The translations under genes were made by a program, and so were the position numbers. Below, in pieces: positions 7,931 to 41,067 of a stretch of DNA of 64,000 bases. This DNA comes from Oxalicibacterium flavum (GTDB taxonomy: Bacteria; Pseudomonadota; Gammaproteobacteria; Burkholderiales; Burkholderiaceae_D), in NCBI RefSeq assembly GCF_014635065.1, contig NZ_BMCG01000004.1:1-64000 (forward strand). Direction: 5' to 3'. The notes under the pieces are model-generated. The model was not told where the DNA came from and made no database searches. It saw only the letters and a list, made by a program, of their open reading frames with translations. Position 1 is the first letter of the stretch. The number at the start of each line of letters is the position of its first letter.

Positions 7931-8021
7931 TTTTGTCCTTTTGTCTATTCCAGCTATTCAACGGATCAGGATGTGCTGCATGCATCGCACGGTAGCGCCG
8001 TTCTTCTTTTATTTCTTCTGG

Positions 8022-8074
8022 TTTGTATATATAGATAGTAGTAATGGTTAACGCAGGCCTGTTTCTGTGGATAA
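8022..8074 (+). repeat. Direct repeat copy 1 carrying a DnaA box
   Basis: 53-base unit: TATATATAGATAGTAGTAAT, then GTTAAC, ending CTGTTTCTGTGGATAA. It matches 46 of 53 bases with copy 2, which lies 392 bases downstream. Confidence 0.9.
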
Positions 8075-8318
8075 GTCAGTTAACAGTTTGCAGATCAATA
8101 CCTTATCGATTTCATAGCTGGTTGGAAAAGACCTGTATGCGATCAGGATAAATTCTGTACAAGAATTCTCTTCACTGCTTTGAGATGGATATCCACCAAG
8201 ACTGGTTCCTGTTGTCCAAAGGCTTATCCACAATCGTTGTTTGTATTACTGGCAGATGAATCGTGAAATTCCTTTTTCAACAGTAAAGATGTTTATTTTT
8301 CCATAAGATAAATGTGTC

Positions 8319-8336
8319 GAAATGACATGTCATTTC
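8319..8336. repeat. 18-base perfect palindrome
   Basis: GAAATGACATGTCATTTC equals its own complement. It lies in the middle of the DnaA-box region and is a candidate protein-binding site. Confidence 0.75.
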
Positions 8337-8413
8337 CCATTCTTTTTTGGAACGTTCACGCGATCTTTTTCATGCCGTGTGTGCAGAGAGAGGAAGGGGG
8401 TTTTAATCTGTTG

Positions 8414-8466
8414 TTTATATATATGGATAGTAGTAATAGTTAACATATGGCTGTTTCTGTGGATAA
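8414..8466 (+). repeat. Direct repeat copy 2 carrying a DnaA box
   Basis: Second copy of the 53-base unit. It keeps the TATATATA tract, GATAGTAGTAAT, GTTAAC and the terminal TGTGGATAA box. Confidence 0.9.
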
Positions 8467-8729
8467 GCAGGGAAATGCAATTGAAATCAATGACTTGAAG
8501 AATTCATAAATCCTGCATAAGAGGTGTATGGCGGCAGGACAGATTTTGCATAAGATCAGTGCTTCACTCTACCTATCGTTTATCCACACACTATCCACGG
8601 CTTGACCAAAACCTTATCCACATGATGACCAATGTCCGTTGTGCGGAGCCACTGCTTGTTTCGCATGCGTGGTGGTAATCTTGATGCCTTCATTACCCAG
8701 GGCGAGCGCCATCAAAAGAGGGAGACATC

Positions 8730-10275: not shown

Positions 10276-10316
10276 AGGACTGGATGTTTCACGTGAAACA
10301 TCCAGTCCTCTTTTTT
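10276..10316 (+). terminator. Intrinsic terminator of mmsA built around a parS palindrome
   Basis: A 34-base perfect inverted repeat (10276-10309) is followed by CTTTTTT. The outer arms are AGGACTGGA / TCCAGTCCT and the apex is the 16-base parS sequence. Confidence 0.85.
10285..10300. other. parS: parS centromere site 1
   Basis: TGTTTCACGTGAAACA, an exact match to the conserved bacterial parS. It is bound by ParB, whose gene lies 4.4 kb downstream. Confidence 0.96.
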
Positions 10317-11113: not shown

Positions 11114-11181
11114 CTCGGGGCTGTTTGCCACACTTTTTAGTTGCATTCGCCCCGCGAGGGGAAATCCTCCGGCAAAGCGTT

Positions 11182-11187
11182 TATAAT
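11182..11187 (+). promoter_or_regulatory. Possible -10 element of the mnmG promoter
   Basis: TATAAT 37 bases before the mnmG ATG. No good -35 is found at 17 bases, so this is tentative. Confidence 0.4.
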
Positions 11188-11223
11188 TTCGCCTCTTGTT
11201 CACTTGCCGCCTCGAGGCGCACC

Positions 11224-13155
11224 ATGCTCTTTCCAACCACATTCGATGTCATCGTTGTCGGCGGCGGTCATGCCGGCACGGAAGCCGCGCTGGCTTCCGC
11301 CCGCATGGGACAGGCCACGCTGCTGCTGACGCACAATATCGAGACCCTCGGTCAGATGTCGTGCAACCCGTCCATCGGCGGGATCGGCAAGGGGCACCTG
11401 GTCAAGGAAGTCGATGCGATGGGCGGGGCGATGGCGATCGCCACCGACGAGGCCGGCATCCAGTTCCGCATCCTCAATTCTTCCAAGGGACCGGCGGTGC
11501 GTGCCACGCGTGCCCAGGCCGACCGTCTGCTCTACAAGCAGGCGATCCGTTCGCGGCTCGAAAACCAGCCCAACCTCTGGCTGTTCCAGCAGGCAGTTGA
11601 CGACCTGATCGTTGACGGCAATCGCGTGGTGGGTGCAGTGACGCAGGTCGGCATCCGTTTCCAGGCAAGGGCGGTGGTACTGACGGCCGGTACCTTCCTC
11701 GATGGAAAAATCCACGTCGGGTTGAACAACTACGCGGCAGGCCGCGCGGGCGATCCGCCGGCGGTTTCCCTGTCGGCGCGCCTGAAGGAATTGCAGCTGC
11801 CGCAGGGCCGGCTGAAAACCGGTACGCCGCCGCGCATCGACGGGCGCACCATCGATTACTCGGTGATGGAAGAGCAGCCGGGCGATCTTGATCCGGTGCC
11901 GGTCTTTTCGGTCATGGGCAATGCGTCCATGCATCCGAAGCAGCTGCCGTGCTGGATCACGCATACCAACGAGCAGACCCACGACATCATCCGCAGCGGA
12001 CTCGACCGCAGCCCGATGTACACCGGCAAGATCGAGGGTGTGGGTCCGCGCTATTGCCCGTCCATCGAGGACAAGATCCATCGCTTCGCAAGCAAGGAAT
12101 CGCACCAGATCTTCCTCGAGCCGGAAGGGCTGACCACCAACGAGTTCTATCCGAACGGCATTTCGACCAGTCTTCCGTTCGACGTGCAATTGCAGCTCGT
12201 GCATTCGATGCGCGGCCTCGAGAATGCGCACATCCTGCGTCCGGGCTACGCGATCGAATACGACTACTTCGATCCGCGCGGCCTCAAGGCCTCGCTGGAA
12301 ACCAAGGCCATCGAAGGCCTGTTCTTCGCGGGCCAGATCAACGGCACCACCGGTTACGAGGAAGCGGCGGCACAAGGCATGCTGGCCGGCCTGAATGCCG
12401 CGCTTCATACGCAGGAACGCGAAGCGTGGACGCCGCGCCGCGACGAAGCCTATCTGGGTGTGTTGGTTGACGATCTGATAACCAAAGGCGTGCTCGAACC
12501 CTACCGCATGTTCACCAGCCGCGCCGAATACCGCCTGAGCCTGCGCGAGGACAATGCCGACATGCGCCTGACCGAGATCGGTCGCAAGCTCGGCTGCGTC
12601 GGCGATGCGCAATGGGAAGTCTTCGAGTGCAAGCGCGAAGCCGTGGCGCGCGAACTCGAGCGCCTGCGCTCGACCTGGGTCAATCCGCGCATTCTGGCGC
12701 AGGCCGAAGCGGAACGCGTGCTGGGCAAAGCGATAGAGCGAGAGTATGCGCTCGCTGACCTTCTGCGCCGGCCAAACGTCAACTACGCATCCCTGCTGAC
12801 GCTGACCGGCATCGATGGCCAGGCGCTGGCGGCACCGGGCGTGGAGGACGACAGCGTGCGCGAACAGGTCGAAATCCAGATCAAGTATGCGGGCTACATC
12901 GAACGCCAGGCACGCGAGGTCGAACGTCACGACCATTACGAAAACCTCAAGCTGCCGGCCGAATTCGACTACATGGAAGTCAAGGGCCTATCGATCGAGG
13001 TGCGCCAGAAGCTCAACAAGCAACGCCCGGAAACGCTGGGCCAGGCATCGCGCATCTCGGGCGTGACGCCGGCCGCGATCTCGCTGCTGTTGGTGCATCT
13101 GAAAAAGGGTGGTTTCAAGGAATTCCTGGCGGCGCAGTCCGAAGCCGCCGCATGA
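11224..13155 (+). CDS. mnmG: tRNA uridine-5-carboxymethylaminomethyl modification enzyme MnmG
   Basis: 643-residue GidA/MnmG, which with MnmE adds the (carboxymethyl)aminomethyl group to the wobble uridine of several tRNAs, using FAD, NADH and methylene-tetrahydrofolate. The FAD-binding motif is at residues 13-18 (GGGHAG), followed by [20 protein letters not shown]. Other signatures are [11 protein letters not shown] and [19 protein letters not shown]. The C-terminal helical MnmE-binding domain ends with [15 protein letters not shown]. The ATG at 11224 aligns with the family N-terminus ([16 protein letters not shown]); an upstream in-frame extension is unlikely. The stop overlaps the rsmG start. 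Confidence 0.97.
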
Positions 13156-36746: not shown

Positions 36747-36869
36747 CCGCCGGCTTTTACCGTGGCGTCGTGCCGATGACCTCGCATCGGCGCGGACGAT
36801 TGCATGGCGACGCACACCTCTTGGGCGATAATAGAGGCTCACTCACCTGTCGCGAGCACGATTCGTCCG

Positions 36870-37967
36870 ATGCCTACCTTCCCCCCGCTGCAAAACGATA
36901 CCTTCCTGCGCGCGCTGCTGCGCCAACCCGTTGACTACACGCCCCTGTGGCTGATGCGCCAAGCTGGCCGCTATCTGCCCGAATACCGCGCCACGCGCGC
37001 GCGCGCCGGCTCCTTTCTGGGGTTGGCGAAGAGTCCCGATTTCGCTACCGAAGTCACGTTGCAGCCGCTGGATCGTTATGCGCTCGATGCCGCCATCCTG
37101 TTCTCCGACATTCTGACGGTGCCTGATGCCATGGGGCTGGGTTTGTATTTCGTTGACGGCGAAGGACCGCGCTTCGAACGCCCCTTGCGCGACGAGGCGC
37201 AGGTGCGCGCGCTGGCGGTGCCGGACATGGACTCGCTGCAATATGTATTCGATGCCGTCACGCAGATCCGTACCGGACTGGCAGGGCGCGTGCCGCTGAT
37301 CGGCTTTTCCGGCAGCCCGTGGACGCTGGCCTGCTACATGGTCGAAGGCGGCGGCTCGGACGACTTCCGCACCGTCAAGTCGATGCTCTACAACCGTCCC
37401 GACCTCATGCGCCACATCCTCGAGACCAACGCGGCGACCGTGGCGGCCTACCTGAATGCGCAGATCGATGCCGGCGCGCAGGCCGTGATGATCTTCGACA
37501 CCTGGGGCGGCGCGCTGGCCGACGGCGTCTATCAGGAGTACTCGCTCAAATATATCCGCGACGTGATCGCGGCATTGCAGACCGAGAAGGACGGGCAGCG
37601 CATTCCGAGCATCGTCTTCACCAAGGGCGGCGGCCTGTGGCTGGCCGAGATTGCCGACAGCGGCGCCGATGCGGTCGGGCTCGACTGGACCGTCAACCTC
37701 GGCGCGGCGCGTGCCGCGGTCGGCGGCAAGGTGGCGCTGCAAGGCAATCTGGACCCGACCGTGCTGTTTGCCCAGCCCGAACAGATCCGGCGCGAGGTCG
37801 CGCGCGTGCTGGAAACCTTCGGTGCGCACACGCCGGGTTCCGGCCATGTCTTCAACCTGGGCCATGGCATTTCCCAGTTCACGCCGCCGGAAGCGGTGTC
37901 GATACTGGTGGATGCCGTGCACGAATTCAGCCGGCCCCTGCATGCAGGCGCAAATCGCGGCAATTAA
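36870..37967 (+). CDS. hemE: Uroporphyrinogen decarboxylase
   Basis: 365-residue HemE, which removes four carboxyl groups from uroporphyrinogen III in haem synthesis. Signatures: [17 protein letters not shown] at the N-terminus, [17 protein letters not shown] and [11 protein letters not shown] in the middle, and [16 protein letters not shown] at the end. The ATG at 36870 opens with [16 protein letters not shown], the normal N-terminus; the longer open frame is not needed. Its 3' side borders the second DnaA-box array. Confidence 0.96.
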
Positions 37968-38202
37968 GTGCTGATAACGGTCCGTTGGGCTGGAAAAGGG
38001 AGGCATCAAGTCGTGCTTATGCACAGCAAAGGGGAGTGGGCAAGCACTTCGGTGGATAAGATGGTGTGTGGCATATCGTACAAAAGCGTTTTTGCAAGTG
38101 CTTGATTTTATTGGATAAAAAATCTGCTTTTTGTTTTGGCATTTTATTGAAACCCGCATCAGATCAAGCGTTTGCGAATGGAAGAGGCGGTTACCCACAA
38201 AG

Positions 38203-38225
38203 TTATCCACAGGATTTGTGGATAG
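38203..38225. repeat. Inverted DnaA-box pair, module 1
   Basis: TTATCCACA-ggatt-TGTGGATAG, preceded by CACAAAG and followed by a purine-rich GAAAAAAG tract. Confidence 0.9.
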
Positions 38226-38545
38226 CAGAAAAAAGTGCTTAAGAATCGAATGCTTAGCGGGATTGCTCAGAATTTACATGAAGTCACAATTTCGCTTGTC
38301 GGAGAGCACCGACAAAAAACCATGAGCCAAAAATGGCTGTCCATGCGCAAACGGCAGATGCTTATTCACAAAATGGTGCAAGCGCCCAATGAGAAGGGTT
38401 AGCATTGGCAAAAATCGGTCCCAAGGCAAGGTGATTGCAAGTAATTGATTTTTATGAGGATTTATTCTGACCAAAAATCGGGCAGGACTTGCAGAGCCAA
38501 AGCTGGCATGGCTTGGTGACGTATTGCAGGCGGTTGTTCACAAAG

Positions 38546-38568
38546 TTATCCACAGCATGTGTGGATAG
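38546..38568. repeat. Inverted DnaA-box pair, module 2
   Basis: TTATCCACA-gcatg-TGTGGATAG with the same flanks as module 1 (GGCGGTT upstream, GAAAAAG and CTTAGCG downstream). Confidence 0.9.
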
Positions 38569-38938
38569 CTGAAAAAGTGTTTATGAAACCGTCGCTTAGC
38601 GCGTTTTGTGAGAAATACGGTAAGCAGAATGTGCGATTGCAGCAGCGGATGGCTTCACCGACTTTCCATCATGTAATTCAATCGCACCATCGAAAAGCAT
38701 TCATTGTGGAAATGTTATGAAGAGGAAAGAATAGTTGCATGTGACGCGCATACTTATTCACAAAAACAAACTATTGCGCAGCAACATCAAATTTTTAACA
38801 AATATTTTCTCGAAGCAGAGGCGTATTTTCAAGTTGTTGATTTCAAAGAGAATTTTTTCTGCCTTGGTTTTGGGCAAATTGTTGAAACCCGCATCATTCC
38901 TTGCAGTGCCGGCTGTCAAGAGCAGCTTGTACACAAAG

Positions 38939-38961
38939 TTATCCACATCAGGTGTGGATAG
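38939..38961. repeat. Inverted DnaA-box pair, module 3
   Basis: TTATCCACA-tcagg-TGTGGATAG with the same flanks; it ends 60 bases before the priA start. Confidence 0.9.
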
Positions 38962-39021
38962 TTGAAAAAGCGCTTATGAAACGAGTAGTTACAACATTTC
39001 TTCAGGATTTACCTTAACTCC

Positions 39022-41067
<2,046 letters not shown>

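Follow-up and report, generated by a model that had tools for sequence, protein, structure and literature searches.

A candidate tandem array of three DARS-type DnaA-reactivating modules with a datA-like arm between hemE and priA in Oxalicibacterium flavum

Introduction

The DnaA-regulating loci DARS and datA have been characterised mainly in E. coli, where DARS stimulates the release of ADP from DnaA, datA stimulates the hydrolysis of ATP bound to it, and DARS activity requires DnaA boxes I and II. The accessible text of PMC5742627 gives as the common feature of DARS1 and DARS2 an equal spacing of the boxes, with box I opposite in orientation to boxes II and III, and describes the essential boxes of datA as all pointing one way. 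According to a review, the DnaA molecules on boxes I and II of DARS are in head-to-head contact. For DARS2, a shift of the IHF sites by 5 or 10 bp is reported to lower activity in E. coli, IHF being a protein that bends DNA by about 180 degrees (both from the accessible part of PMC4245941).

The extent of conservation is worded differently from source to source. In the passages available to us, the DARS2 core is described as conserved among gamma-proteobacteria related to E. coli (PMC4245941), while DARS conservation is stated for beta- or gamma-proteobacteria (PMC5742627) or for many proteobacteria (PMC10380432). DARS-like sequences outside E. coli are already known. For the composite geometry presented below, the portions of the literature covered by our search gave no mention of an 84-bp IHF arm, box IV, a link to priA or a tandem array, part of which Fujimitsu 2009, Kasho 2013, Kasho 2017 and Nozaki 2009 may hold. 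Here we describe a locus in a stretch of 64,000 nucleotides of the O. flavum genome (contig NZ_BMCG01000004.1, positions 1 to 64,000, hereafter the window, to which all positions refer unless a contig is named).

Layout of the hemE-priA gap

The gap between hemE and priA and its three modules are organised as follows:

36804..37967, plus strand: hemE, uroporphyrinogen decarboxylase, left flank (TIGR01464, E 1.5e-122)
37968..39021, no strand assigned: gene-free hemE-priA gap with the three-module array (from the sequence, the ORF list and the flank profiles)
38017..38225, minus strand: module 1, with box IV 38017-38025 (TTATGCACA), IHF site 38095-38107, box III 38191-38199 (TTACCCACA), box II 38203-38211 and box I 38217-38225, inverted
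38362..38568, minus strand: module 2, with box IV 38362-38370 (TTATTCACA), IHF site 38438-38450, box III 38534-38542 (TTGTTCACA), box II 38546-38554 and box I 38560-38568, inverted
38754..38961, minus strand: module 3, with box IV 38754-38762 (TTATTCACA), IHF site 38830-38842, box III 38927-38935 (TTGTACACA), box II 38939-38947 and box I 38953-38961, inverted
39022..41067, plus strand: priA, primosomal protein N', right flank, GTG start at 39022 (NF004067, E 8.2e-294)

A preliminary description had placed three DnaA-box modules of about 150 bases here, in AT-rich DNA free of genes. The modules are real and lie where it had put them, and their setting is as described: GC content is 42% at 38001-39000 against 61% for the whole window, and the gap holds no ORF of its own of at least 100 aa, all listed frames that reach into it overlapping hemE or priA. 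The unit is indeed repeated, but it measures 207-209 bp, a third and a fourth box having been missed earlier. The pair TTATCCACA-N5-TGTGGATAG occupies 38203-38225, 38546-38568 and 38939-38961, and CAAGTNNTTGATTT starts at 38095, 38438 and 38830, which is 108, 108 and 109 bases before the pair, start to start. Each module has one extra box at a distance of 3 bp from this pair and another beyond the CAAGT motif. Read along the plus strand, the order is therefore box IV, 69, 67 or 67 bp (modules 1-3), the IHF site, 83, 83 or 84 bp, box III, 3 bp, box II (TTATCCACA), 5 bp and box I, inverted (CTATCCACA). On the other strand, CAAGTNNTTGATTT agrees at every position with the IHF consensus WATCAANNNNTTR, taken, like the DnaA box consensus TTWTNCACA, from the accessible text of PMC4585315.

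The arrangement is confined to the gap. The pattern TTATCCACA-N5-TGTGGATA, with up to two mismatches, occurs at three places in the genome of 3,216,396 bases, all of them in the gap, and a reversed-pattern control gave no match genome-wide. A scan for the three-box core found it three times in the gap and nowhere in the remaining window, and none of 1000 dinucleotide shuffles of the gap contained it. An RNA element was rejected, as no Rfam match up to E = 1 fell within 37900-39100, and so was a plasmid relative, the gap giving no match in the plasmid collection.

Comparison with E. coli DARS1, DARS2 and datA

The E. coli K-12 regions of DARS1, DARS2 and datA, at the places we take to be theirs, served as yardsticks and were analysed together with the three window modules by a single script. 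The arrangement boxI-N5-boxII-N3-boxIII was present in DARS1 (TTATCCACT / TTATCCACA / TAATACACA), in DARS2 (TTATTCACC / CTATCCACA / TTCTTCACA) and in all three modules, and absent from the E. coli datA stretch. The modules thus have what defines DARS, a three-box core with box I opposite to II and III and spacers of 5 and 3.

Beyond the core, each E. coli locus differs from the modules in its own way. DARS1, between bioD and uvrB, has the core in identical orientations but as a single copy, and the intergenic stretch scanned holds no IHF consensus site at up to one mismatch. DARS2, in the region with rppH-mutH, also has one core only; like the modules it has its IHF sites on the box III side, but these have a mismatch apiece and stand 58 and 74 bp away from box III, whereas the window sites are perfect and lie at 83, 83 and 84 bp, about one helical turn further than the second DARS2 site. 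DARS2 is moreover described, in the source text available, as needing Fis sites, FBS2-3, where the window modules have a phased box IV. The datA locus, in the stretch from glyV-X-Y to queG, reads box 2 - 56 bp - IHF - 84 bp - box 3. It shares with the modules the succession box, IHF, 84 bp, box in matching orientations, boxes 2 and 3 pointing in one direction, and differs in the other arm, which is 67-69 bp in the window (57-60 bp in some relatives). Unlike the modules, datA has an inverted box 3 bp further on and lacks a boxII-N5-boxI pair. Among the boxes that datA needs is box 7, which is of low affinity.

Judged by its sites, each module is a DARS core combined with a datA-like skeleton through a common box III, because III-II-I matches DARS and IV-IHF-III matches datA. 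The likeness to datA, box IV itself and the distance classes of box IV reported below were all spotted post hoc. The suggestion in the preliminary description of a new type of DnaA-binding locus holds in part, each module joining the anatomy of two known E. coli locus types.

Conservation at hemE in Burkholderiales and relatives

Relatives were collected by a HemE search, and the best 80 loci, from Burkholderiales and their kin, were analysed; the closest HemE match among them was that of Keguizhuia sedimenti (83%). A strict rule found 45 cores in 33 of the 80 loci, all between hemE and priA and in one orientation, with no further one in 1.47 Mb. Together with the three of the window they form a set of 48 cores, whose counts are not p-values because the lineages are related and not independent. 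Each of the 48 carries, at 83-87 bp from box III and always in one orientation, an IHF consensus site (42 perfect, 6 with one mismatch), and the 3-bp spacer between III and II is CTT throughout. No further perfect IHF site occurs in any of them on either strand 0-164 bp from box III.

Beyond the IHF site, a perfect TTWTNCACA box IV oriented as II and III is present in 46 of the 48 cores. Its distance to the IHF site is 47-48 bp (8 cores), 57-60 bp (21) or 66-70 bp (17), classes separated by roughly a helical turn. Of the nine periods compared, 10.5 bp concentrated the distances most (0.841), barely above 10 (0.826) and 11 (0.818), and this in related lineages.

With a relaxed rule, the module was found within 1.1 kb after hemE in 63 of the 80 loci, with no match elsewhere. 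It was absent from the other 17, nine of which are titled Paraburkholderia and some of which are cut by a contig end. The 30 module loci found by the relaxed rule only have a box I with 2-8 mismatches. Some of these divergent boxes still resemble a weak box (CTATCCACC, CTGTCCACC), and box I is gone in several Cupriavidus, Paraburkholderia, Caballeronia and Thiomonas loci, in which II, III, the IHF site and mostly box IV remain.

Wider distribution and the link to priA

The window modules together with DARS1 and DARS2 of E. coli supplied a core pattern, which was searched with up to two mismatches. Matches were present in 249 of the 300 order genomes and in 233 of 398 genomes sampled from the phylum, the reversed control giving none in any of the entries listed. 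Beyond the class, the well-sampled families f78, f84, f85, f88, f91 and f95 had few or no core matches. In the phylum families f79, f83 and f87, also outside the class, matches were frequent, with up to 9 in one genome, so that DARS-like cores may reach beyond the class.

An exact search was made for the composite, boxes II and III plus an IHF site allowed anywhere at 58-88 bp. Of the genomes searched, 99 of the 300 in the order and 101 of the 369 in the class had it, and the control gave none. Within the distance allowed, 234 of the 241 counted matches of order and class placed the IHF site at 81-88 bp from box III: 81-87 bp in 123 of 124 in the order (the window's three counted) and 82-88 bp in 111 of 117 in the class outside it. 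Forty loci were fetched from the class list, for which box I had been no part of the search pattern. Box I with at most one mismatch stood at spacer 5 in 32 of them, against 0 or 1 at each of spacers 1-4 and 6-11. Box IV was perfect in 25 of the 40, at 60, 68-72 or 79-81 bp, and never inverted. Comparison with relatives, proposed in the preliminary description as a check, found the module conserved both at the HemE loci and among class loci; on anatomy and conservation together, the DnaA-organised structure which that description had read here appears well supported.

The start of priA lay within ~0.5 kb of the module in 11 of the 40 class loci and ~2.3 kb off in one more. The box I side points towards priA in 11 of these 12, as it does in the window array, and in the twelfth box I falls at the estimated priA start codon. 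The fetched stretch held no priA match in the remaining 28, a few of these stretches being cut by a contig end. Upstream of priA in E. coli, one box with one mismatch was found and no module. The position upstream of priA suggests an old location of the module. Scattered modules also occur, and two single class genomes (G1091 and G933) carry five and four composite modules, respectively.

Tandem copies

Exact composites were present in all 13 genomes of the genus, with three copies in 5 genomes, two in 7 and one in 1. In the two-copy genomes the copies are spaced at 770-808 bp, a distance that would follow if a middle copy deviated from the exact pattern. For Collimonas and for the Duganella/Rugamonas/Pseudoduganella group, copies one and two cluster according to position rather than genome, with SH-aLRT values of 95-99 for the main branches, and these copies are therefore old. 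The placement of the window's three copies in the tree is not firm.

Two other genomes of the same family also carry repeated boxes. At G014:C28:699734-700738, five inverted box pairs recur every 245-246 bp, and this array exceeds that of the window in both length and regularity. At G018:C1:249535-250579, five core matches with mostly weaker boxes lie within ~0.8 kb, with a composite just after them.

Proposed function of the array

We consider it somewhat more probable than all contrary readings taken together that the gap holds three DARS-type DnaA-reactivating modules in tandem, ~30 kb from the likely oriC, with an added datA-like arm. DnaA would bind head-to-head on boxes I and II and also on box III, forming the kind of complex through which E. 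coli DARS causes DnaA to give up ADP and thereby frees it to take up ATP. IHF bound 83-84 bp beyond box III would turn the DNA back on itself so that DnaA on box IV meets the core, box IV taking the role that Fis has at E. coli DARS2. Situated 84 bp from box III, and close to an integral number of helical turns from box IV, the bend would produce this contact.

Sites, orientation, spacing and conservation are the directly observed part of the DARS reading. It is supported because DARS1, DARS2 and the modules have one core geometry that datA lacks, because box I is kept at spacer 5 in 32 of the 40 class loci, and because an IHF site at 83-87 bp accompanies all 48 cores and a perfect box IV 46 of them. 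From these features we infer DnaA and IHF binding, looping, and reactivation rather than inactivation. IhfA is encoded in the genome. A second frame with a DnaA domain, of 248 aa on contig C3, may be Hda, a guess from its size; if so, inactivation by RIDA would already exist, and a reactivating site would make sense. The DARS reading is weakened because the IHF distance differs from that of DARS2 and because IV-IHF-III fits datA no less well, and our confidence in it is held at its present, modest level because box I is lost in some relatives.

That loss fits a datA-like or other use in those relatives, and a datA-type locus is the first alternative to be considered for the window as well, although we judge it unlikely. 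Here the IHF bend would join DnaA-ATP on box IV and on III-II, ATP would be hydrolysed, and active DnaA would be lowered after the origin has fired. The datA spacing and orientations, boxes IV, III and II all running in one direction as do the essential datA boxes, and the retention of the IV-IHF-III skeleton where box I is lost all speak for it, and early duplication near oriC would suit an inactivator. This reading nevertheless leaves box I at exactly spacer 5 in the class loci unexplained; its other arm is 67-69 bp instead of 56, with 57-60 bp in relatives only, and the likeness was noticed after the fact.

The DARS and datA readings could also be joined. The module might be an ancestral dual DnaA switch of gamma- and beta-proteobacteria, a datA skeleton and a DARS core between which IHF sets the direction, with E. 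coli datA and DARS2 as derived halves and the copy upstream of priA as the ancestral locus; we offer this as speculation, a touch less credible than a datA-type locus.

A titration site, at which the array would merely hold DnaA near oriC and leave its nucleotide unchanged, is rather doubtful. The gap holds six of the twelve TTWTNCACA boxes in the window, and a high box density near the origin has been proposed as a titration trait for E. coli in the source text available. For titration alone, however, the conserved IHF distance, phasing and orientation would be unnecessary.

An operator through which DnaA controls priA transcription is very doubtful. The last box I of the window ends 60 bp before the priA start, and the class loci with priA within ~0.5 kb mostly turn the box I side towards it; against this, the core can lie ~500 bp from priA in single-core relatives, and this variable distance, together with the 28 of 40 class loci lacking a priA match, weakens the operator reading.

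A fixed-geometry module of this frequency in order and class, often upstream of priA, would make IHF-gated DnaA control old and general, and the design would possibly be Fis-free, a fourth DnaA box replacing Fis. A natural experiment is provided by relatives that differ in copy number (one, two or three) and in the presence of box I, some at known positions close to oriC, and the modules may help to show how E. coli-related bacteria time chromosome copying.

Probable replication origin in the window

The likely origin is elsewhere in the window:

8000..8625, no strand assigned: likely oriC (five perfect DnaA boxes, IHF site, skew, nearby parS)

Its perfect TTATCCACA boxes, at 8066 (minus), 8224 (plus), 8458 (minus), 8580 (plus) and 8614 (plus), are five of the 15 in the genome, and a perfect IHF site lies at 8485-8497. 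Perfect parS sites at 10285 and 11098, 1.7-2.5 kb to its right, are the only parS-like sites of the genome at up to two mismatches from what we take to be the consensus, and mnmG is at 11125-13155. The cumulative GC skew has its minimum at 6-8 kb of the window, the skews being weak and only 8 kb of the left side visible, as the window begins at a contig end. In ~20-kb samples, all 11 on contig C1 are negative and all 6 on contig C4 beyond the window are positive.

The preliminary description had considered that the gap may be the true origin. Its DnaA boxes, IHF sites and AT-rich gene-free DNA speak for this idea, to which we give hardly any credence: the gap is very unlikely to be oriC, given that a region ~30 kb away, at 6-13 kb, has the skew minimum, parS, five perfect boxes and mnmG, the skew switch and parS expected close to an oriC both falling at 6-11 kb, and that the module stands at several scattered places in some genomes.

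The dnaA gene does not appear close to the likely oriC. It is at 692 kb on contig C1 (G000:C1:692285-692764), a different contig from oriC and parS, and two perfect boxes lie less than 2 kb from it. Around dnaA the skew per 2 kb switches sign at least twice, so that, as far as skew goes, this region may have a role.

Within the likely oriC, two AT-rich repeats each run into a DnaA box. These copies, ~390 bp apart at 8000-8470, carry GATAGTAGTAAT and GTTAAC followed by CTGTTTCTGTGGATAA, and their TAGTAGTAA runs resemble DnaA-trios; the origin may therefore contain two unwinding units.
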